IMG/VR virus record: IMGVR_UViG_3300020166_000106
Coordinates: 1-25,135 of that record
Direction: 5' to 3' (one strand)
From: a virus
Length of the DNA: 25,135 nucleotides
Shown: one piece after another, positions 240-25,135 of the stretch
Position numbering within the stretch: position 1 is the stretch's first letter
Layout: each line of letters begins with the position of its first letter
Notes under the pieces: model-generated
Seen by the model: the letters and a program-made list of their open reading frames with translations, nothing else
What the model was told of the DNA's origin: nothing
Database searches by the model: none
Program-made: the position numbers and the translations under genes

Positions 240-3200
240 TTAGATATCCCTACTTATTTTTAATTCTAATTCTTCTACTTTAACTGTTAAGTCTTTAATT
301 GCTTCAATTAATAAAGGTACAATTTTTTCATAGTTAACGGCTTTATATCCACTATCTCTAGTTGTAACAGCTTCTGGTAGTATTGCTTCTATTTCTTGTG
401 CAATTACTCCTACATCTTTACCTGTATTACCGTGTATAGTTTTTGTTTCTTCTTTAGTTAATTCTTTCCAATCAAATGTATTACCACTTACTCCAATTAC
501 TTTACATAAAGAATTTTCTATAGGTTTAATATTACATTTTAATCTTTTATCAGAAGTAGCATAAGCTACAATATCATTTGTTGCATCAATTCTACCTGTA
601 GTTGTATTACAAGCATTTCCAGTACCCCCTACATTTAAATGATTTCTAACATGAGAACATTGAGTATAAAAGGTACAATTTTGATTTGAAGATAAGTTAT
701 AACCAGCAAGAAAGGAATAATCATGACCATTAATGTAATTGCTATACCCACCTAATATAGCACTACAATTAGCACCATTACATATACAATTTAGTCTACC
801 TCCTAAGATAGCAGAGGTGTTAGAATTATAAATTTTATTCGTAGTACCTCCAACAATAGAACTCTTAGGTGAACTTACACAAATTACATTGAAATCTCCT
901 GCACCTATAAAACTACAATTTGTACCTGTTTGACAGATGCAGTTGTTACATCCTGCAACTATAGCACTATTACCAACACAAGTATTAATTTTATTGGCAC
1001 CTCCTGCTCCTATAAAATTTCCTGAACAAGCAGTATTATTATTGACTATACAATTTACTGATCCTCCTGCTATTACACTAGTTTTACCACTGGATATATA
1101 ATTTCTACAACCACCACCAATAAAACTTTCAGTTGAACTTGAACCTGTGTTTTTTAATCCACCAGCTATAGAAAATCTAGTAGCTGAATTTGTTTGGCTA
1201 CTTCCTATAGTTATTTGCATAGCCCTAATTTGAGCTAATGCATCTCCATCACCCTCTGTAAAGACATGACATTCACCAGGAGTAGCATAAACGTTTTGGG
1301 CACCATAACCAGCTAAATTATTTAAATCATAAGATATGTTTCCAAAACTATCTCCATCATAATCAAGTATGAATTTCTGGCCTTCATTAATGGCTATATT
1401 TTGGGAATCGTTATGTAATATGTTACCATCAAATGTTAAACTACCTTCAGCATTTAATTGGCCTTGTGTACCTGTTGAAGTTGTAACTCTGTTGTTACCT
1501 AAATTTGTTATAGTAGCTGTTCCGCTTGTTCCTGAAGAACCTGAAGAACCTGAGTTACCTGATGTTCCTGAAGAACCTGAAGAACCTGAGTTACCACTTG
1601 ATCCTGAACTACCTGAAGTACCAGAGTTACCGCTTGTTCCTGATGAACCACTAGAACCTGAGTTACCACTTGATCCTGAACTACCTGAAGTACCAGAGTT
1701 ACCGCTTGTTCCTGATGAACCACTAGAACCACTTGTACCACTTGATCCTGAACTACCTGAAGTACCAGAGTTACCGCTTGTTCCTGATGAACCACTAGAA
1801 CCACTTGTACCACTTGATCCTGATGAACCACTTGAACCTGAGTTACCACTTGATCCTGAACTACCTGAAGTACCAGAGTTACCGCTTGTTCCTGATGAAC
1901 CACTAGAACCTGAGGTTCCTGATGAACCACTAGAACCTGATGTTCCTGGGGTACCTGTTCCACCACTTGTTCCTGAAGAACCTGAACTACCCGATGAACC
2001 TGAACTACCGGATGAACCCGAAGTTCCTGAATTTCCTGATGAACCAGATGTACCACTTGATCCAGATGAACCTGAAGTTCCAGATGAACCACTTGATCCT
2101 GAGTTTCCTGAAGAACCACTTGTTCCTGAAGATCCTGATGATCCACTTGTTCCTGAAGAACCTGATGAACCAGATGAACCACTTGAGCCTGATGTACCAC
2201 TTGAGCCTGAACTACCACTTGAGCCTGAACTACCACTTGAGCCTGAACTACCTGAGGTTCCACTTGAAGCGGCATTTGTTTCATATCCTACATTACCACT
2301 TGAATCTACAACTAATACATCATTACTAGTTGTTATATTAGGTAAATTAGGGGCATTTAAAGTACCATCAATCATTGTTAAACCTGAACCACTTACAGAT
2401 AAGATTGGAACACCTGATATATCAGATGCTGCAAATACTATCCCTGTCAAATCATCTGTTACTGAAAATAATTGACCTTGAGATCCTTGTACATCTAAAA
2501 TTGTGCTACCTGATCCTGATACTGTAAGTTTAGTACCATCAAATGTAAAATTAGCTTCAGCATTTAATGCACCTTGAGTTCCTGTTGATGTAGTTACTCT
2601 ATTGTTACCTAAATTTGTTATTGTTGCTGTACCACTTGTTCCTGATGAACCAGATGTTCCTGATGAACCACTTGAACCTGAGGAACCACTTGAACCTGAA
2701 GTTCCAGATGAACCACTTGAACCTGAAGAGCCTGAAGAGCCTGAAGAACCAGATGAACCACTTGAACCAGATGTTCCTGAGGAACCTGAAGAGCCTGAAT
2801 TTCCTGATGAACCTGATGTACCTGATGATCCACTTGAACCTGAAGTTCCAGATGAACCACTTGATCCTGAGTTTCCTGAAGAACCACTTGTTCCTGAAGA
2901 ACCACTTGAACCTGAAGAACCTGAAGTACCACTATTACCTGAACTACCTGATGAACCCGAAGTTCCACTTGAACCAGATGTTCCTGATGTACCATCATCT
3001 CCTCTATCACCTACTAAGGCGAAAGAAACAATTACATCTTCATTATTAGTAAATGGGGATGCAGCTGATGATGCTTGTTCACTTATGTTTATTGTCCAAT
3101 ATACACCTAAGTCTGTTAGGTTTGATATTGAAAACAATATAAAATTTTCTGGAGCGAATTTATCCGCTATTCTCATATGACCCTTTACTGCTGATGTAGA

Positions 3201-5150
3201 GGCATCAATACTCTCTAAAAATGACTGTATATTATCACCATCTTCTGTAGTCTGACTAATAATGGATAATGTAGATGCGTTTTGTGTAGTGTTATTTAAT
3301 CTTATATCTCCATTACCTGGATCAGCAGTACCTGTTGCTGTGTCAAATGTATAATTAAAAGTAGCACCACCAAAATTACCATCTTGTCCTGATGTACCAC
3401 TTGACCCAGATGAACCTGAAGTTCCCGATGAACCTGAAGTACCACTTGAGCCTGAAGAACCACTTGAGCCTGAACTACCTGAAGTACCAGATGACCCTGA
3501 TGAGCCACTTGTTCCTGATGAACCTGATGAGCCTGAAGTTCCTGATGTACCACTTGATCCTGTATTTCCTGAAGTTCCAGATGAACCACTTGATCCTGAG
3601 TTTCCTGAAGAACCTGAAGAACCTGAAGTACCAGAGTTACCGCTTGTTCCTGATGAACCCGATGAGCCGGAGTTACCACTTGTTCCAGAGGAACCTGATG
3701 AACCATCTGAACCTGAAGTTCCTGAAGTACCAGATGACCCTGAAGAACCACTTGTGCCTGATGAGCCTGAAGAACCACTTGTTCCAGGATTACCTTGGAC
3801 ACCACTTGTTCCTGATGAACCACTTGAACCACTTGTTCCTGATGAACCTGAAGAACCGTTTGAACCTGAAGTTCCTGAAGTTCCTGAAGAACCGGTATTA
3901 CCTGAAGTACCTGATGTACCGGATGAACCAGATGAACCTGAGTTACCACTTGTTCCTGAAGAACCAGATGAACCATCTGAACCTGAAGTTCCTGAAGTTC
4001 CGGATGAACCTGAACTACCTGATGTTCCTGAAGTTCCTGAAGAACCTGTATTACCTGAAGTTCCTGAAGAACCACTTGATCCTGATGAACCTGATGTACC
4101 ACTTGTTCCTGGGTTACCTTGGACACCACTTGTTCCTGATGAACCACTAGAACCACTTGTTCCTGAAGAACCTGAACTACCTGATGTTCCTGAAGTTCCC
4201 GAAGAACCAGTATTACCTGAAGTTCCTGAAGATCCACTTGAGCCTGATGTACCTGATGAGCCCGAACTTCCTGAAGTACCTGATGAGCCTGATGAACCTG
4301 AAGTGCCTGAAGAGCCTGAGCTACCGCTTGTACCTGATGAACCTGAGCTACCTTTATCACCTATAAGTTCAATAGCCATAAAGGTAGCATCGCTATTACC
4401 TACATTATTCCAACCACTTTTATCAATATGAGTGATATCTAATGTTCTCCAACCACCATTATCTGTTTGGGCAGTAACATATGCTGAATCATAATATATT
4501 TGATTTGATTCTAATCTAAATGTTATAACAGATTTATTATTATTTGTAGAATCTGTTAGAGTACCTAATATTGGGTCTATACCTAATCCATCTAAATCAG
4601 TCTCACTAATATAAACTTCAGTAGCTGCAGCCGGGTCAGCGGCGTTAAATCTAAATTTACCTGAGCCTGGGTCTGCTGATGTTGTAGATGTAGAGTATTC
4701 TATACGGAATCCATAAGTGGAAACACCTGAAGTACCAGATGTACCTGAACTACCTGATGAACCACTTGTTCCTGAAGAACCAGATGAACCATCTGAACCT
4801 GAAGTTCCTGATGTACCCGAAGAACCTGAAGAACCTGATGTGCCTGAAGAACCAGATGAACCATCTGAACCTGAAGTACCTGATGTACCGGATGAACCAG
4901 ATGAACCACTTGTTCCTGAAGAACCACTAGAACCACTTGAACCTGATGAGCCACTTGAACCTGAACTACCATTTGAACCAGAAGTACCAGAAGTACCACT
5001 AGATGCAGCATTTTCTCTGGTACCTACAGTACCATCACTATTTATTACAAGCGTTGTGTTTTCAGATCCTTGAGTTGAAAGACCTGTTAATTTAATTTCA
5101 TTTAACTCAGCATTACTACCACTAAGTATTACTTTTTTCCAATTTGGCAT
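240..5150 (-). CDS. Giant collagen-like tail fibre with C-terminal S74 self-cleaving chaperone domain
   Basis: A 1636-residue fibre, probably trimeric and at the tail tip or side. Seen in order: an N-terminal module (about 1-50, WKKVILSGSNAEL) shared with the fibre gene upstream; Gly-X-Y arrays rich in Ser and Thr; a beta module with ADPGSGKFRFN (about 145-266); more Gly-X-Y; a second copy of that module with ADPGNGDIRLN (about 590-715); Gly-X-Y; a TITNLGNNRV module (about 838); Gly-X-Y; a second TITNLGNNRV module (about 1210); Cys-rich repeats (about 1340-1487); and an S74 domain from TSDKRLK (Ser1533, Lys1538), including DVGVIAQEIE. S74 domains in phage spikes and endosialidases promote trimer folding and cut themselves off at the Ser of this motif, which would release about 104 residues. 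X and Y are almost only Ser, Thr, Asn or Asp, with very little Pro. The gene follows a promoter-like motif at 5208-5222. The fibre role is strongly inferred; the receptor is unknown. Confidence 0.88.
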   Translation of the reverse strand: MPNWKKVILSGSNAELNEIKLTGLSTQGSENTTLVINSDGTVGTRENAASSGTSGTSGSNGSSGSSGSSGSSGSSGSSGTSGSSGSSGTSGTSGSDGSSGSSGTSGSSGSSGTSGTSGSDGSSGSSGTSGSSGSSGTSGTSGVSTYGFRIEYSTSTTSADPGSGKFRFNAADPAAATEVYISETDLDGLGIDPILGTLTDSTNNNKSVITFRLESNQIYYDSAYVTAQTDNGGWRTLDITHIDKSGWNNVGNSDATFMAIELIGDKGSSGSSGTSGSSGSSGTSGSSGSSGTSGSSGSSGTSGSSGSSGTSGNTGSSGTSGTSGSSGSSGTSGSSGSSGTSGVQGNPGTSGTSGSSGSSGSSGTSGNTGSSGTSGTSGSSGSSGTSGTSGSDGSSGSSGTSGNSGSSGSSGTSGTSGNTGSSGTSGTSGSNGSSGSSGTSGSSGSSGTSGVQGNPGTSGSSGSSGTSGSSGSSGTSGTSGSDGSSGSSGTSGNSGSSGSSGTSGNSGTSGSSGSSGNSGSSGSSGTSGNTGSSGTSGTSGSSGSSGTSGSSGSSGTSGSSGSSGSSGSSGTSGSSGTSGSSGSSGTSGQDGNFGGATFNYTFDTATGTADPGNGDIRLNNTTQNASTLSIISQTTEDGDNIQSFLESIDASTSAVKGHMRIADKFAPENFILFSISNLTDLGVYWTINISEQASSAASPFTNNEDVIVSFALVGDRGDDGTSGTSGSSGTSGSSGSSGNSGTSGSSGSSGSSGTSGSSGNSGSSGSSGTSGSSGSSGTSGSSGNSGSSGSSGTSGSSGSSGSSGSSGSSGSSGSSGTSGSSGSSGSSGSSGTSGSSGTSGTATITNLGNNRVTTSTGTQGALNAEANFTFDGTKLTVSGSGSTILDVQGSQGQLFSVTDDLTGIVFAASDISGVPILSVSGSGLTMIDGTLNAPNLPNITTSNDVLVVDSSGNVGYETNAASSGTSGSSGSSGSSGSSGSSGSSGTSGSSGSSGSSGSSGTSGSSGSSGTSGSSGNSGSSGSSGTSGSSGSSGTSGSSGNSGTSGSSGSSGSSGSSGSSGTSGGTGTPGTSGSSGSSGTSGSSGSSGTSGNSGTSGSSGSSGNSGSSGSSGSSGTSGSSGSSGTSGNSGTSGSSGSSGTSGSSGSSGTSGNSGTSGSSGSSGNSGSSGSSGTSGNSGTSGSSGSSGNSGSSGSSGTSGNSGSSGSSGTSGTATITNLGNNRVTTSTGTQGQLNAEGSLTFDGNILHNDSQNIAINEGQKFILDYDGDSFGNISYDLNNLAGYGAQNVYATPGECHVFTEGDGDALAQIRAMQITIGSSQTNSATRFSIAGGLKNTGSSSTESFIGGGCRNYISSGKTSVIAGGSVNCIVNNNTACSGNFIGAGGANKINTCVGNSAIVAGCNNCICQTGTNCSFIGAGDFNVICVSSPKSSIVGGTTNKIYNSNTSAILGGRLNCICNGANCSAILGGYSNYINGHDYSFLAGYNLSSNQNCTFYTQCSHVRNHLNVGGTGNACNTTTGRIDATNDIVAYATSDKRLKCNIKPIENSLCKVIGVSGNTFDWKELTKEETKTIHGNTGKDVGVIAQEIEAILPEAVTTRDSGYKAVNYEKIVPLLIEAIKDLTVKVEELELKISRDI
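685..1135 (-). repeat. Cys-rich YadA-head-like peptide repeats in the large fibre
   Basis: About eight imperfect units of 16-22 residues follow the pattern S-[FAV]-I-[GA]-G-G-x-x-N-x-I, for example SFIGGGCRNYI, SAILGGRLNCI and SAILGGYSNYI. Many units carry Cys after the N-x-I step (NCICNGANC). The spacing resembles left-handed beta-roll head repeats of trimeric adhesins. The structure is inferred, not shown. Confidence 0.6.
1520..2270 (-). repeat. Gly-Ser/Thr collagen-like array 4 of the large fibre
   Basis: Continuous Gly-X-Y triplets between the two TITNLGNNRV modules. They are made almost only of GSS, GTS and GNS, with one GGTGTPG interruption. The DNA contains exact 65-bp and 47-bp repeats listed separately. 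Confidence 0.9.
1594..1910 (-). repeat. Four identical 65-bp repeats in the fibre gene
   Basis: The same 65-bp block occurs at 1594-1658, 1666-1730, 1738-1802 and 1846-1910. Start-to-start distances are 72, 72 and 108 bp, that is 24, 24 and 36 codons, so the reading frame and the Gly-X-Y phase are kept. I compared all four by eye and found no mismatch. Confidence 0.9.
2071..3614 (-). repeat. Three dispersed identical 47-bp repeats
   Basis: An exact 47-bp block occurs at 2071-2117, 2839-2885 and 3568-3614, that is in three different collagen-like arrays separated by globular modules. All copies are in the same orientation and frame. Identity at synonymous positions suggests recent copying between arrays. 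Confidence 0.85.
2635..3000 (-). repeat. Gly-Ser/Thr collagen-like array 3 of the large fibre
   Basis: Gly-X-Y triplets (GSS, GTS, GNS) link the second ADPGNG-type beta module to the first TITNLGNNRV module. The array opens with GDRGDDG, a charged cap like the GDKG that opens array 2. Confidence 0.88.
3388..4350 (-). repeat. Gly-Ser/Thr collagen-like array 2 of the large fibre, the longest
   Basis: About 320 residues of Gly-X-Y triplets lie between the two beta modules. GVQGNPG occurs twice (near 3780 and 4110), and these give two of the very few prolines in the whole array set. GNTGSSGTSG is also repeated several times. Confidence 0.9.
4726..4999 (-). repeat. Gly-Ser/Thr collagen-like array 1 of the large fibre
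   Basis: Gly-X-Y triplets (GTS, GSS, GSN, GSD) lie between the shared N-terminal module and the first ADPGSG-type beta module. Confidence 0.88.
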
Positions 5151-5668: not shown

Positions 5669-6898
5669 TTAAGAATAGATATAAATATCTTGTGATGAAG
5701 ATACAAATATATTTCCTTTAGCCGTATATCTTGATACTACAGTTGATGTAGTATCATTAGCATCGGCACCTATTACAACAGTTGACATAAAAGCATCTGG
5801 AGTAAATCCTGAACCACTTGCATGGAATGAACTTGTTACACCCCATCTTAATGATGATAATCCATCATAAGCAAAGGCATCACCATAATCCTGATCTGTT
5901 TGTTGTATTACAATACCACCATCTCCAGCAGAAGTAGAACCAGAAGCTAATAATATAAATCTATCTTTTATTAGTAAATTTTCTGAATTTTGGAATGATG
6001 CTGTACCTTGTACTGTTAAATCATGGCTAATTACAACATCACCGGTTACTGTTAATAAACCACCTACTGTAGAACCACCATTACTTATAAAAGTTAAATT
6101 AGATTCTGCTTCAGCACTTGATCCATCAATATCAGTTAATACTCTATTATTACCAGAATTATTAACATTAATTACACCACTTGTTCCTGAAGAGCCACTT
6201 GAACCATCTGAACCTGAAGAACCTGATGTACCACTTGAACCTGAAGAGCCTGATGTACCTGAGGAACCGGACGAACCATCTGAACCTGAAGTTCCTGATG
6301 TTCCACTTGAACCAGAAGAACCAGAAGAACCATCTGAACCTGAAGTACCTGAAGAACCACTTGAACCATCTGAACCTGAAGTTCCTGATGTTCCGCTTGA
6401 TCCTGAACTTCCAACAGCACCATCTGCACCACTTGTTCCTGAAGTACCTGAAGAACCACTTGAGCCTGATTCACCAGAAGTTCCTGATGAGCCACTTGAT
6501 CCACCAGCACCGTCAGCACCACTTGTACCTGATGTACCTGAAGAACCTGAAGAACCTCCTGCACCATCTGCACCACTTGTTCCTGATGTACCTGAAGAAC
6601 CTGAAGAACCGTCAGAACCACTTGTTCCTGAAGAACCTGAAGAACCTCCTGCACCATCTGCACCACTTGTTCCACTTGAGCCACTTGAGCCACTAGTTCC
6701 ACTTGAACCTGAGGAACCATCTGAACCTGAAGTACCACTTGAGCCTGAACTTGATGCATTTTCTCGTGTCCCAACTACCCCTGCAGGGCTGATTACCAAT
6801 ACTGTCTCTTCACTTCCTTGTACCGATAAATCTGATAAGGACAACTGCGCTAGTTCTGCGTTCGAGCCACTAACAATTACTTTTTTCCAATCTGCCAT
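5669..6898 (-). CDS. Collagen-like tail fibre, paralogue of the large fibre
   Basis: A 409-residue fibre. The first 50 residues (WKKVIVSGSNAEL, QGSEETVLVI, VGTRENASSSG) closely match the N-terminus of the 1636-aa fibre, so both probably attach to the same virion site. Residues about 50-240 are Gly-X-Y repeats of GSS, GTS, GSD and GAD. Then comes a NNRVLTDIDG...AEAESNLTF module, followed by a beta-rich tail (DLTVQGTASFQN, DRFILLASGST, GGIVIQQ, LRWGVTSSF) of a kind I associate with marine phage virion fibre proteins. There is no S74 domain, unlike the paralogue. A near-match to the promoter-like motif lies at 6914-6928. Compared with the large fibre it has many more Asp/Ala triplets (GAD, GAGG). 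A structural role is likely; the exact location is inferred. Confidence 0.82.
   Translation of the reverse strand: MADWKKVIVSGSNAELAQLSLSDLSVQGSEETVLVISPAGVVGTRENASSSGSSGTSGSDGSSGSSGTSGSSGSSGTSGADGAGGSSGSSGTSGSDGSSGSSGTSGTSGADGAGGSSGSSGTSGTSGADGAGGSSGSSGTSGESGSSGSSGTSGTSGADGAVGSSGSSGTSGTSGSDGSSGSSGTSGSDGSSGSSGSSGTSGTSGSDGSSGSSGTSGSSGSSGTSGSSGSDGSSGSSGTSGVINVNNSGNNRVLTDIDGSSAEAESNLTFISNGGSTVGGLLTVTGDVVISHDLTVQGTASFQNSENLLIKDRFILLASGSTSAGDGGIVIQQTDQDYGDAFAYDGLSSLRWGVTSSFHASGSGFTPDAFMSTVVIGADANDTTSTVVSRYTAKGNIFVSSSQDIYIYS
6178..6748 (-). repeat. Collagen-like Gly-X-Y array of the second fibre
   Basis: About 190 residues of Gly-X-Y triplets. A GADGAGGSSGSSGTSG unit repeats several times. The array contains no proline. 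Confidence 0.88.
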
Positions 6899-20551: not shown

Positions 20552-22123
20552 TTAAAGAAGCCATTTAATGTCTTCCTTACCATCGGGTGTGTTTATGTGA
20601 TAGGGATTATCTGAGCCTTGTGAAAAACCATATCCACCTTGGTACGAAGTCCTATCTACAGACATATTACCTAAAGCATTTTTAGTTGCTTGTAGTCCTT
20701 GTTGTCTTAATTTTAGCGCTGTATCTCTAATATACATAGCTATACCAAAGGACATTACTAAATCATCATTATACCCACTTTGAGCTTCTGCCCTATTATT
20801 TTTCCATATAAAGGTTTTCATTTCTTCTAGCAATCTTTTTGATTGTATTGTTACTCCTTTATCACTAATATATTCCTGAAATTTACCTATTACCATAGGT
20901 CTAGTTCTAGAAGACATTGTAAAACCGGCTACCATTTTTGAATGGTCCTGGTATTTGTCAAAATACGAACTAGCATTTGGGGAATCACTCTTTTGTGAAT
21001 AGTAAAGGTTAGGATATTGTCTATCTAAAGCAACTTGTATTGTTGCCCAACCTATATTAGCATTCTCTATTACTAACATTGCTTCATTATATTCAGTAGC
21101 TAAACCAACTAATAAATGCCCGTATTCTTTTGTACCTAATTGTCCTTTATATTCAGCAACTTGTACATTATTGGCTACATCAATTACATGACATGCGGAA
21201 TAATCTTTTCCATCTCCACGAGCAACGTCTGCTACTACCACATAATCTCTTGTGTAATCAGGTGATTCCCAAACCCATAAGTTTTGGTCTGCTCCTCTTC
21301 TTTCCATAGGATCTTTTATATAAGTTTTTTCATAAAAGTCTATATATTCAGGATAAAATACAATATCACCAGAGGTACTAAAATCACAATCACATTCTTG
21401 TGCAGCCATTCTAGGATCACCTAATAATTCATCTTGTGTATCCCTCCATTTTTGATCTCTTTCTGGGTGGACATACCAGGGGAGTTTTATAGGTAAAAAT
21501 TGATTTTCTCTATTTTCTGCTCTAACCCATGTTTGATGAAACCAATTTCCAGTACCATAAGGGGTAGATAATGCTATACAACCACCACCAGTTGCTAATG
21601 TTTGTTGTGCTGAGGCCCATATTTCTCCAATATTATCAATAAAAGCTGCCTCATCAATTAGTAGTAAAGATACTGCTTCGGATCTACCTGCATCACTTGA
21701 AGCCGATGTTGCTTTAATTTGTGATCCATTTGCTAATCGTAAAGTTAATTTATTATTTTCAGGAGCATCTATTTTAAGCCATGAAGGTAAGTTTTCATAC
21801 ATGAATTTTACCTTTGTTACCATGTTTTTAGCTGTTTCTTGCTTAGTTGCAATACAAAGAATATTTTTATCCTTATGGAATGTCATTAACCACAATGAAT
21901 AACCAGCACCTAAAGTAGATATACCTAACTGTCTAGATTTTAATACTACACTATAGGGATTTTCTTGAAATAACGTTAATACTTTTTCTTGGAATGGGTA
22001 TAGATTAAACTGTATACGCCCACGTTGTGGGTGCTGTATATAACAGTATTTACGCATAAAGTGTACTGGGTCTTGAGCACATTTTAAGTATTCTTGGCGT
22101 ATTACTTTTTTTAAATCAGACAT
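20552..22123 (-). CDS. 17: Terminase large subunit, T4 gp17-like packaging motor
   Basis: A 523-residue ATPase-nuclease that cuts concatemeric DNA and pumps it through the portal. Seen in order: Walker A-type SRQLGIST (63-70), Walker B LLLIDEAAF (153-161; Asp157, Glu158), coupling motif STPYGTGNW (186-194), then an RNase H-fold nuclease with Asp299 in VVVADVARGDGKDYSA, Glu353 in LVIENANIG, and Asp453/454 in GYNDDLVMS. All key residues are present. It is slightly shorter than T4 gp17 (610). The gene begins 1 bp after the stop of the spanin-like gene. No small terminase (gp16) was recognised in the window. Confidence 0.96.
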   Translation of the reverse strand: MSDLKKVIRQEYLKCAQDPVHFMRKYCYIQHPQRGRIQFNLYPFQEKVLTLFQENPYSVVLKSRQLGISTLGAGYSLWLMTFHKDKNILCIATKQETAKNMVTKVKFMYENLPSWLKIDAPENNKLTLRLANGSQIKATSASSDAGRSEAVSLLLIDEAAFIDNIGEIWASAQQTLATGGGCIALSTPYGTGNWFHQTWVRAENRENQFLPIKLPWYVHPERDQKWRDTQDELLGDPRMAAQECDCDFSTSGDIVFYPEYIDFYEKTYIKDPMERRGADQNLWVWESPDYTRDYVVVADVARGDGKDYSACHVIDVANNVQVAEYKGQLGTKEYGHLLVGLATEYNEAMLVIENANIGWATIQVALDRQYPNLYYSQKSDSPNASSYFDKYQDHSKMVAGFTMSSRTRPMVIGKFQEYISDKGVTIQSKRLLEEMKTFIWKNNRAEAQSGYNDDLVMSFGIAMYIRDTALKLRQQGLQATKNALGNMSVDRTSYQGGYGFSQGSDNPYHINTPDGKEDIKWLL

Positions 22124-22124
22124 A

Positions 22125-22529
22125 CTATTTTACTAAAAGTACAGCAGCTAATACTGCTACTACTCCAGCCCCTGCTGTTAATTTATTTTTAAACTTTTGT
22201 TTTTTTACTTCAAGTTTTAACTTTTCATTTAACTGTTGGGAAAGTATAAGTTGTGACCCCTTTGTATCTAATATAGAATTAAAATTATTGATTTGAAAAT
22301 TAAGGTTATTAATAACACTATCTTTTAATATAATTTTATTTTTTAATAAAGAGTACTTTGTATTGATTAAACTTAATTCTTGTTTAAAACTATCTCCAGT
22401 TATTAAATCCTTAATTACTAGTCTGACTATTGGTTTTTTTAATTGAATCGAAGTACTGTCTATAACGTTCTGTGAAAAACCGTTCAAGCTCATCATCCCC
22501 AAAAGAATCAACATTATTAACTTTCTCAT
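22125..22529 (-). CDS. Exported coiled-coil protein with C-terminal membrane anchor, spanin-like
   Basis: A 134-residue protein. Residues 1-20 (MRKLIMLILLGMMSLNGFSQ) form a clear signal peptide ending in a Bacteroidetes-like GFSQ. No Cys lipobox is present. The segment KPIVRLVIKDLITGDSFKQEL is followed by a coiled coil (about 50-112) and a C-terminal hydrophobic stretch GAGVVAVLAAVLLV (120-133). Its start lies 119 bp inside the preceding gene in another frame, as in Rz/Rz1 spanin pairs of lambda. The layout, with ends near both membranes and a coiled coil between, fits a fusion-spanin role in lysis, but the missing lipobox means this is inference. It could also be a Bacteroidetes-specific envelope protein. 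A later Met (M12 or M13) would destroy the signal peptide, so the first Met is chosen. Confidence 0.7.
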   Translation of the reverse strand: MRKLIMLILLGMMSLNGFSQNVIDSTSIQLKKPIVRLVIKDLITGDSFKQELSLINTKYSLLKNKIILKDSVINNLNFQINNFNSILDTKGSQLILSQQLNEKLKLEVKKQKFKNKLTAGAGVVAVLAAVLLVK

Positions 22530-22794
22530 TTGTTTGTCTTTTTAATATAACTATTTTATTATCTTGTTTACTAATTTCTTGGTCTAATTTTGTTATTTGA
22601 CCATTTAAGGTATCAATTTCCAAGGTTAATTCTTCATTTATGTTATGTAAAGAATTAATTTTATTTTCTAATGCCTCTATTTTACTATTATACTCATTGA
22701 TATATTCATCTTCATTTGAAGAGTACATATTAATTAGGTAGTAAGCACCAAAAAATACTATAGCAATATATAAAAACCTTTCCTTAGATGACAT
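22411..22794 (-). CDS. Membrane-anchored coiled-coil protein, i-spanin-like
   Basis: A 127-residue protein with an N-terminal transmembrane helix (RFLYIAIVFFGAYYLINMY, 6-24), then a charged coiled coil (about 28-95: KIEALENKINSLHNINEEL, DTLNGQITKLDQEI) and a C-terminal DDELERFFTERYRQYFDS. The topology, with a short cytoplasmic N-terminus and a long periplasmic coiled coil, is that of inner-membrane spanins such as lambda Rz. Its 3' end overlaps the next exported protein gene by 119 bp out of frame, which supports a spanin pair. The start overlaps the stop of the upstream gene (TAATG). Lysis function is inferred. No endolysin or holin is visible next to it. Confidence 0.7.
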   Translation of the reverse strand: MSSKERFLYIAIVFFGAYYLINMYSSNEDEYINEYNSKIEALENKINSLHNINEELTLEIDTLNGQITKLDQEISKQDNKIVILKRQTNEKVNNVDSFGDDELERFFTERYRQYFDSIKKTNSQTSN

Positions 22795-23543
22795 TATATC
22801 TTCTTATTATCTAGAATACTTTCTAGTTCTTTTTTTAGTTTAGTTTTATCTTTTAAGATTTTAACTAATTTTTCTTTTTCTTCACCTTCAGCTTTAGAAT
22901 ATTTTTTAGCTAATGATTTCATCTCACGAGTTAATAGTGCCAATTCTTCTTTTGCTTTAGCTAAACCTTTAGTTTTTTTAATATCGGATTTAGTTGGTTC
23001 TGCATCTTCGTTTTCATTTAAACCCATAGAACTAGCTATATCAGAGAGCCCTCGCATAAGTCCCTTTTGAAAGTAACGAAAATCTATTTGAGAATTAAGG
23101 TATGATTTTCTTATTATTGTAAAAACTTCATCAGCAGCATTATACCCCATTTCTTCTATTTCATCTAAACCCACATTTGCATTTTCTTTTATATCGTAAG
23201 GGTTTTTATGGGGATTTACAACGGCATCATATGCTTTACCAATATCACCACCATATAAATTATCAGTGATTTTTTTGCCTAACATTTTTAACTGGTCATT
23301 ATTTAGGGTATGTTTTTTTCCAAATCCTTCTAAATAGAATTGACCTATATCTTCATAGTCATAAGTAAAATCTTTCATTAATGGTGTTGCATCTTCTTCT
23401 ATACCAGCTTCTTTTTTAGCTGATTCTAGATCCTTAATAGCGGCAGTTAATTCTTTAGTTTTTTCAATTTCTGCTTCAGTATCTTCAGATAATGTAGAGA
23501 TAATATTTTCTCTAATATAATTTTTTAATTCAGATTTTTTCAT
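22794..23543 (-). CDS. Unknown helical, charged phage protein
   Basis: A 249-residue protein rich in Glu and Lys. The N-terminus (KKSELKNYIRENIISTLSED) is an amphipathic helix like those at the start of many phage core-type proteins. The middle (DFTYDYEDIGQFYLEGFG...LNNDQLKMLGKKI) is less charged. The C-terminal 65 residues form a likely coiled coil (AKAKEELALLTREMKSLAKKYSKAEGEEKEK). No catalytic motif, no signal peptide. Its stop overlaps the start of the i-spanin-like gene by one base. An exact promoter-like motif lies 10 nt upstream. Possibly a virion-internal or assembly protein, but I do not assign a function. Confidence 0.65.
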   Translation of the reverse strand: MKKSELKNYIRENIISTLSEDTEAEIEKTKELTAAIKDLESAKKEAGIEEDATPLMKDFTYDYEDIGQFYLEGFGKKHTLNNDQLKMLGKKITDNLYGGDIGKAYDAVVNPHKNPYDIKENANVGLDEIEEMGYNAADEVFTIIRKSYLNSQIDFRYFQKGLMRGLSDIASSMGLNENEDAEPTKSDIKKTKGLAKAKEELALLTREMKSLAKKYSKAEGEEKEKLVKILKDKTKLKKELESILDNKKI

Positions 23544-23553
23544 TATAATAAGG

Positions 23554-23568
23554 TTTTATTATAAATAT
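23554..23568 (-). promoter_or_regulatory. Promoter-like motif upstream of 249-aa gene
   Basis: Exact ATATTTATAATAAAA on the coding strand, 10 nt before the ATG at 23543 and 1 nt after the kinase stop. Confidence 0.6.
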
Positions 23569-23569
23569 G

Positions 23570-24100
23570 TTAAAGATTAGTAAACTTTAATATTTGTTGG
23601 ATTCGTTCCTCTGTAGATCCAGATATCTTTTCTATTTTACCTGCTTTATGACCATGTCTTTTAATAAGTGTGGTAATAGTAAAATCAATTAAATCTCTAT
23701 AGTGCTCATCTGTTTCACGTACTCCATTATCTTCAATATCTATTCCATAAGGAGATATGTAAAAAATATAATCATATTCTCTAACAAATTCACTAGCATA
23801 TGTTTCAAATGCTTCTTTATCCTGGTGAGGTATTGATTTTGCATTTAAAGTAAATGCCATAACATCAAGAACTGTTCTATCTGTAATAATATCTGTTTGA
23901 ATTAATTCAGCACAACGTTCAGCCAAGAATATGGTTTGACCCTTTAATGTTGAATCTGTATTAAGTGGAATACCTTGCTCCATCAAGTATTTAGAACGTT
24001 CTGTTCTAAACATATAATCTTTAAATTGCCTTGTTTCTTTTAAAGCATTTACTAATGTAGTTTTACCTACACTCATTGTACCACATAAACCTATTTTCAT
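23570..24100 (-). CDS. P-loop nucleotide/nucleoside kinase-like protein (AAA_28 type)
   Basis: A 176-residue P-loop protein. Walker A GTMSVGKTT (7-15), a DRTVLDVMAFTL segment (74-85) with the Asp-Arg lid-type motif, YDYIFYISPYGI (109-120) as the second beta strand, and a NGVRETDEHYRDLID segment (125-139) with an Arg that could hold phosphate. This arrangement fits the NadR-kinase/AAA_28 group (PF13521), which includes nucleotide or nicotinamide-riboside kinases. The substrate cannot be told from sequence. In a phage it may feed dNTP or NAD supply. The length is normal and the motifs are intact. It starts 3 bp after the preceding gene and shares the transcript with the flavoprotein. Confidence 0.8.
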   Translation of the reverse strand: MKIGLCGTMSVGKTTLVNALKETRQFKDYMFRTERSKYLMEQGIPLNTDSTLKGQTIFLAERCAELIQTDIITDRTVLDVMAFTLNAKSIPHQDKEAFETYASEFVREYDYIFYISPYGIDIEDNGVRETDEHYRDLIDFTITTLIKRHGHKAGKIEKISGSTEERIQQILKFTNL

Positions 24101-24404: not shown

Positions 24405-25135
24405 TTAATTTTCCAAAAGTGATTCAGCAACATATGTCCCTTGTGCACCACTTACCGTTATACCTCTAGCTGATAAAGCATCGCCTACGAAGTGTACGTT
24501 AGGATACTTAGTGAGTGCTAAATTGGCATAATCGACAAGTGGCTCAGGAGAAAGATATTTTACTTCAGGTACATAAATACCCCAATCATCTTTTAATGTT
24601 GGGAATACTTTTTTCATGTCCTCAATAAAATCATATACATACATAAAGTAGGGTTGCATTGATTTTGAAATTTTATGTAATGTATCTACTTGAATAGCTG
24701 ATACATTTACACCTTCAGATGTTTGTGATGGTTTTCTACTTGGGCTATAATATAAACCAGTACCGTCTATTTGTAATTTTTTAACTACATCTCTAGACCA
24801 ATCAAATGGTTTATCAATGCCTTGCACTTCCATTAATATACCAAAATTGGTCATATCATTTCGGAATGCTTCATCTTTTTTAGCGTGTCCGTTGTACGAA
24901 TGATCTCCATACGTTTCTTCAACGGCAACATATGCTGCATTGTTGTTTGTACAGAAAGAACGTAATGATACTCCTTTGTCTTCATATTTTCTATATAATT
25001 TGAAATCATAAGATACATCAATTAATTTTTGGAAGTGTTTTTGTGGTGCTTCAAATCGAACACCTATTTGTACTGGTTTTGGTTCAGTTGGTAAATCGTA
25101 TTTTTCAGCTAATTGTTTACCAAAGTCAATACCTG
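24405..25135 (-). CDS. C-terminal part of FAD-dependent dehydrogenase-like flavoprotein, cut by right edge
   Basis: The open frame continues upstream of the internal Met at 24854 to the window edge without a stop, giving about 242 residues of C-terminal sequence. Seen: KPVQIGVRFEAP, SLRSFCTNNNAAYVAVEE, NFGILMEV, and near the end NVHFVGDALSARGITVSGAQGT. The last matches the C-terminal Gly-Asp FAD-contact motif followed by a Gly-Ile helix in two-dinucleotide-domain flavoproteins. The pattern GVRxE...RxFC...GD fits uncharacterised FAD-dependent dehydrogenases of the COG2509 type. The N-terminal GxGxxG dinucleotide fold lies outside the window. Substrate unknown; in a phage it would be an auxiliary metabolic or nucleic-acid-modifying enzyme. 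The gene is the first in this run and is followed by two small genes. Confidence 0.7.
   Translation of the reverse strand, partial: GIDFGKQLAEKYDLPTEPKPVQIGVRFEAPQKHFQKLIDVSYDFKLYRKYEDKGVSLRSFCTNNNAAYVAVEETYGDHSYNGHAKKDEAFRNDMTNFGILMEVQGIDKPFDWSRDVVKKLQIDGTGLYYSPSRKPSQTSEGVNVSAIQVDTLHKISKSMQPYFMYVYDFIEDMKKVFPTLKDDWGIYVPEVKYLSPEPLVDYANLALTKYPNVHFVGDALSARGITVSGAQGTYVAESLLEN

Follow-up and report, generated by a model that had tools for sequence, protein, structure and literature searches.

Can a phage attack the outer membrane with a two-component spanin whose second subunit carries no lipid? This question is raised by two overlapping genes in an IMG/VR virus fragment of 25,135 nt, the whole of which we refer to as the window. 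Lambda Rz/Rz1 represents the embedded class of two-component spanins, and T4 PseT.3/PseT.2 is a two-component pair too. In two-component spanins the second subunit is a lipoprotein, whereas the second protein of the window pair, B, has a signal peptidase I site of the Q-rule type, a long helix and a hydrophobic tail. From the sequences and their conservation we judge it probable (about 0.7, a figure that does not cover the location of B's tail) that A and B are a spanin-type lysis pair acting at the outer membrane in a phage of a Bacteroidota host. The best reading is a two-component spanin-type pair in which the second subunit is not a lipoprotein.

A and B are conserved overlapping genes

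The initial annotation had described two ORFs that overlap out of frame by 119 bp, and both are present as such (Table 1). It had called the arrangement embedded; however, B extends beyond the stop codon of A, and in the terms of Kongari 2018 a second gene that runs past the stop of the first makes a pair 'overlapped', with 'embedded' denoting another class. Two-component spanin genes are embedded, overlapped or adjacent, so A/B has an arrangement known from them. The ATG starts of both genes are conserved, each with an A-rich leader ahead of it, and read-through of the A stop codon would drop the first 40 residues of B.

Two independent IMG/VR searches, started from A and from B respectively, found 139 distinct loci. 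All of them carry the two ORFs in an identical frame relationship, which argues that the overlap is not due to chance. Wider profile searches returned 487 to 490 relatives. The pair is preserved in about 160 unique IMG/VR loci; A and B are retained jointly in two genomic settings, window-like (105/105 unique loci) and immuto-like (59/59), the latter resembling Flavobacterium phage immuto. With immuto B as the query, 80 loci were retrieved, 79 of them with both genes; in the remaining one (L269) the B start is only 91 bases from the locus end. Homologues occurring singly, which the initial annotation had named as evidence against a pair, were not encountered in the retrieved loci. The overlap is 74-128 nt long in nearly all relatives, with one apparent value of 146.

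We found that the overlap is constrained in both frames. Where paired sequences carry the same residue, codon differences in A were 0.117 in the overlap versus 0.256 elsewhere, and those in B were 0.159 versus 0.320 (67 unique pairs, permutation p <= 1e-4 for each). This dual-frame constraint, together with the conservation, excluded a chance overlap or a pseudogene. A and B are real genes under joint constraint.

Table 1. The A/B pair and its neighbours in the window
Feature	Position	Strand	Remarks
ORF A	22411..22794	minus	127 aa; i-spanin-like
ORF B	22125..22529	minus	134 aa; second partner
A/B out-of-frame overlap	22411..22529	minus	119 nt including the A stop codon; constraint in both frames
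Terminase large subunit (TerL), T4-type	20552..22123	minus	adjoins B downstream; 60.7% identical to TerL of Flavobacterium phage immuto
249-aa protein, function unassigned	22794..23543	minus	upstream of A; homologue in 83/105 window-like loci

Protein A resembles a first spanin subunit

The A sequence contains an N-terminal membrane helix (about residues 7-25) with acidic residues on its C side, followed by a coiled coil. An AlphaFold2 model (single chain, window-family alignment, mean pLDDT 84.3) consists of helices 3-96 and 100-123. The periplasmic helix runs to residue 96, and the C-terminal helix follows with a conserved VD..ELE.FF..RY motif, of which V95-D96, E102-L103, F106-F107 and R110-Y111 are invariant in an alignment of A relatives. 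At 0.15 nm per residue, the extramembrane helix of about 71 aa would be about 10.6 nm long in this model. Sequence and model agree with the first subunit of the Rz/Rz1 type, which has an N-terminal TMD, N-in C-out topology and a periplasmic coiled coil. A-type proteins matched Rz-like spanin PHROGs weakly. Among curated families (Pfam, NCBIfam, PHROGs), A gave sub-threshold coiled-coil-type noise and B nothing solid, and Foldseek searches of both models against BFVD gave no significant match, as expected for single long helices.

Protein B has a predicted Q-rule signal peptide and no lipobox

Simple scales served to assess the signal peptide, topology and hydrophobicity. The predicted signal peptide of B is MRKLIMLILLGMMSLNGFS followed by Gln, with a cut after S19 that would make Q20 the new N-terminus. 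A Bacteroidetes-specific rule has been described in which the signal peptidase I cut exposes a Gln that then cyclises (PMC5837995). F-S-Q at the predicted site is invariant in two alignments (A2 and A3) and likewise throughout the immuto-like set, being present in 68/68 window-like and 55/55 immuto-like unique pairs, and the putative signal peptide of B follows this Q-rule. A lipobox or a Cys at the mature start was found in 0/68 window-like and 0/55 immuto-like unique pairs. Because none of these 123 pairs has a lipobox while FSQ is invariant, its absence is a conserved trait rather than a sign of decay. In alignment A3 the invariant features of B are the ATG, F18-S19-Q20, L37 to I43, G45 and D46, so that a conserved head, LVIKDLI.GD (residues 37-46), is found in the mature protein.

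Window B has no Cys anywhere, and four immuto-like members have one two residues ahead of the signal-peptide FS. Most immuto-like B proteins contain a periplasmic Cys (DGC), and their A partners have none beyond the membrane region. Kongari 2018 discussed Cys-mediated links in spanins and found about 4% of two-component spanins to lack a periplasmic Cys, as the window pair does. These results bear out the earlier description of a first protein with an N-terminal membrane helix and a coiled coil and a second with a signal peptide and no lipobox Cys, and the Q-rule agrees with the suggested fit to a Bacteroidetes envelope.

The hydrophobic tail of B

The AlphaFold2 model of B (single chain, window-family alignment, mean pLDDT 70.6) has a signal helix (2-16), a loose linker (17-31) and one helix (32-133). 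At the C-terminus, a K-rich stretch precedes about 17 hydrophobic residues. The extramembrane helix of about 84 aa would measure about 12.6 nm at 0.15 nm per residue. Placed end to end, the helices of A and B would match the width of the periplasm approximately, and side by side about half of it.

We compared tails on a rough scale in one table, within which alone the values are comparable: the mean charges of the N-flank of the B tail were +3.8 and +3.3, with 0 to +1 after the tail, whereas the u-spanin-like tails of phages 11b, P12002S and 6H carried +2 to +3 after the helix and were clearly more hydrophobic. Judged as a C-terminal TMD, the hydrophobic tail is marginal in Mel-JY01 as well as in the window-like and immuto-like proteins, and in the latter two groups its flank charges are reversed. 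The B tails of phages PAU and cr127_1 are strongly hydrophobic, enough for ordinary inner-membrane insertion. On the same rough scale, the membrane helix of A in window-like phages scarcely exceeds the B tail in hydrophobicity. A GlyGly-CTERM-like sorting signal in the tail was also considered and set aside, as no basic cluster follows the helix.

Most likely, at roughly even odds, the tail stands in for the lipid of an o-spanin as an outer-membrane anchor. We favour this location because of the K-rich N-flank, the charge of 0 to +1 after the tail and the lower hydrophobicity relative to the 11b, P12002S and 6H tails, and because a partner protein in phage P2559S (below) has a beta-strand-like end. 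We know of no outer-membrane-anchoring helix of this kind. A type I helix inserted in the inner membrane is almost as probable. Both subunits would then lie in the inner membrane, B (N-out, C-in) side by side with A, and the outer membrane would be reached through the distal tips or a third, outer-membrane partner only. This is the simplest reading of a signal peptide plus a C-terminal hydrophobic helix, and the similar length of the periplasmic helices, both with conserved tips distal, speaks for it, as do the strongly hydrophobic tails of cr127_1 and PAU. However, the positive charges lie before B's tail and not after it, and the immuto-like tails are poor stop-transfer sequences. The flank charges and the lower hydrophobicity argue mildly against a standard type I helix in the inner membrane, and in favour of a tail that passes through this membrane. 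Moreover, the relatives have exchanged A's membrane segment but retained a similar tail on B, and the link to the outer membrane is left unexplained. We regard this arrangement of the pair as a serious alternative of somewhat less than even probability. Kongari 2018 noted that the place of a spanin might be taken by a type I protein of the inner membrane or by an OMP.

Homologues of the pair lie in a lysis cassette

The nearest isolate, judged by TerL (Table 1), is Flavobacterium phage immuto. Its gp84/gp85, annotated merely as hypothetical proteins and with a truncated B start, are homologous to the window pair (37% identity for A, 42% for B) and share the same kind of overlap, the Q-rule signal peptide and the hydrophobic tail. 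Unlike the window pair, they lie 73 kb from TerL in a lysis cassette, and immuto B has the DGC cysteine. In immuto, a GH19 chitinase-type endolysin and a PF05105 holin lie upstream of the pair, two genes separating the holin from A. Of the 37 immuto-like loci that were informative (unique, at least 1.1 kb upstream, no TerL downstream), 33 have an endolysin and a holin upstream of A, in most cases directly adjoining it. Among the exceptions (L255, L254, L258 and L261), L255 carries an Amidase_2 gene at two genes' distance upstream of A, and L254 has a window-type kinase context interrupted by the contig end. The order GH19 endolysin-holin-A-B is a canonical lysis cassette, which supports the spanin-like reading given in the initial annotation.

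Window-like loci have TerL after B instead. Their genes are arranged as kinase, 249-aa protein, A, B, TerL and portal. TerL adjoins B in 105/105 unique loci (within a few bases in the window), and the 249-aa protein is treated here as a neighbour of the pair. We found no endolysin or holin in the window, and no GH19 above the cut-off in ten longer window-like contigs, themselves fragments, which gave one sub-threshold match inside a 1333-aa frame. The T7 spanin pair likewise lies directly ahead of TerL, and T4-like phages do not have their lysis genes in a cluster (PMC6139136). The packaging neighbours would suit a membrane complex of A and B with another role (superinfection exclusion, lysis inhibition or a minor virion component) that lies among late genes by chance. 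Against such a role stand the endolysin-holin-A-B order in the homologues and the endolysin neighbours in cr127_1 and P2559S, and we consider it unlikely.

Elsewhere in the window, positions 240-5150 and 5669-6898 encode long collagen-like or repetitive tail fibre proteins with many tail-fibre PHROG matches. Positions 24405-25135 encode the C-terminal portion of a protein that resembles flavin-dependent oxidoreductases and is truncated by the end of the window; the gene is upstream of a thymidylate/deoxynucleoside-kinase-like gene, and a 449-aa relative is found at L254 1947-3296.

The same architecture in other phages

We scanned phage genomes for an ORF with an N-terminal helix that is overlapped by an exported ORF. 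The scanner found such pairs in the window, immuto, the crAss-like phage cr127_1, PAU and P2559S; in each, Gln follows a site of the signal-peptidase-I type and a lipobox is absent. It also picked up one spurious 28-aa frame in P2559Y. In the controls lambda, T7 and P2 it returned lipoprotein partners, although the P2 start and lipobox picked may not be the true ones. No A/B-type pair was returned from 11b, P12002S, 6H, P12024S, B124-14, P2559Y or the crAss001 stretch examined. The GenBank annotations of immuto, cr127_1, PAU and P2559S set the start of B too far downstream, so that the signal peptide is hidden.

The PAU pair is gp291/292, and the gene directly upstream of A in cr127_1 matches an endolysin PHROG (E 2e-16). 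Because these two phages were chosen through weak tblastn matches to A (E 0.05 for PAU, 0.5 for cr127_1), only their B features count as independent evidence. In phage Mel-JY01 (TerL 53.6% identity) the pair is found as adjacent, non-overlapping genes directly ahead of TerL. The architecture recurs without clear sequence similarity in cr127_1, PAU and Mel-JY01. Neither the Mel-JY01 nor the cr127_1 B protein had relatives in IMG/VR scans, and a scan of bacterial genomes returned one MAG contig, by which no host could be assigned. The cyanobacterial host recorded for Mel-JY01 (PP395634.1, 'Microcystis phage Mel-JY01') may be wrong, given a TerL near to the Flavobacterium phage type and a Q-rule signal peptide.

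Croceibacter phage P2559S has a comparable pair right behind its endolysin, in which gp29, an N-terminal helix protein, shares an out-of-frame overlap with an exported partner of the Q-rule type (ORF 27508-28065). It has no sequence similarity to A/B, and its C-terminus looks like about four beta-strands and not a helix. Within 27300-28065, this coiled-coil partner ends in about 55 residues that by eye resemble four beta-strands ending in W, recalling a trimeric outer-membrane anchor. The annotated gp30 is a truncated version of the partner.

Relation to known spanins

Overlapped two-component spanins such as P2 LysB/LysC share with the pair a first protein with an N-terminal membrane helix and a coiled coil, an exported second protein that starts out of frame inside the first gene and, as in the A/B homologues, a place beside endolysin and holin. 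Unimolecular spanins (T1 gp11, and the candidates gp49 of Flavobacterium phage 11b, gp36 of Flavobacterium phage 6H and gp33 of Polaribacter phage P12002S) resemble B in having an N-terminal export signal and a C-terminal hydrophobic segment, the candidates also coming from Bacteroidota phages. Unlike them, B has no lipobox, is K-rich before the tail rather than positive after it, and has a constant partner in A. According to Kongari 2018, a lipobox is required for o- and u-spanins; B matches neither the lipoprotein second subunit nor the N-terminally lipoylated u-spanin. Lacking a lipobox, the pair, although probably spanin-like in function, belongs to neither defined class. That B is a degenerate unimolecular spanin without its lipobox, beside an unrelated neighbour A, is very improbable: proteins with a lipobox and a C-terminal TMD do exist in Bacteroidota phages, as in 11b, P12002S and 6H, but the lack of a lipobox in all 123 unique pairs, with FSQ invariant, does not indicate sporadic loss, and A is always there, always overlapping or adjacent and equally constrained.

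For the spanin-type pair that we prefer, the following course can be proposed. A would lie in the inner membrane (N-in, C-out) and raise a coiled coil of about 10 nm into the periplasm. B would be exported by Sec and cut by signal peptidase I before Gln20, which is probably cyclised to pyroglutamate, leaving a helix of about 12 nm that ends in the hydrophobic tail. After the action of holin and endolysin, we infer that the conserved tips (the C-terminal helix of A and the LVIKDLI.GD head of B) would join in a physical complex, which, with the tail in its presumed location, would bridge the membranes and disrupt or fuse them, thereby breaching the outer membrane.

A 2025 survey concluded that Bacteroidetes phages use exclusively unimolecular spanins (PMC12596118), and a paper on North Sea flavophages annotates unimolecular spanins only. 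The A/B pair extends the picture given by the survey. In the literature that we searched, which covered work outside subscription, we found no description of a lipid-free two-component spanin. Since lipoprotein u-spanin candidates occur in Bacteroidota phages, the lipid-free pair would be an alternative and not a necessity. Tentatively, and at rather less than even odds, a third class of system for disrupting the outer membrane may be in common use among Bacteroidota phages. It would be a two-component spanin in which a signal-peptidase-I (pyroglutamate) protein with a C-terminal outer-membrane anchor (a helical tail or P2559S-type beta-strands) and no N-terminal lipid forms the outer subunit. 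Kongari 2018 listed B124-14, P2559S and P2559Y among the phages in which no spanin was found. A conserved lipid-free pair in Bacteroidota lysis cassettes would explain part of this spanin-less gap (Bacteroides and Croceibacter phages), would mean that spanin searches based on the lipobox overlook a class, and would open the breach of the outer membrane by such phages to a test in an isolate, immuto on Flavobacterium sp. LMO8.

Other candidate envelope-lysis proteins

Unannotated candidate u-spanins with a lipobox and a C-terminal membrane helix were seen beside endolysins at L238 28129-28593, L240 28366-28776 and L241 29452-30006, in phages 11b, 6H and P12002S. DUF6549-type proteins with an N-terminal membrane helix lie next to endolysin or holin genes in the Bacteroides phages B124-14 (L144 6765-7370) and crAss001 (L242 94-696, a match below the cut-off) and are candidate envelope-lysis proteins. 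In Croceibacter phage P2559Y, gp23 (22998-23621), beside an amidase, combines an N-terminal membrane helix with a beta-strand-like C-terminus and might be a one-chain linker from the inner to the outer membrane.
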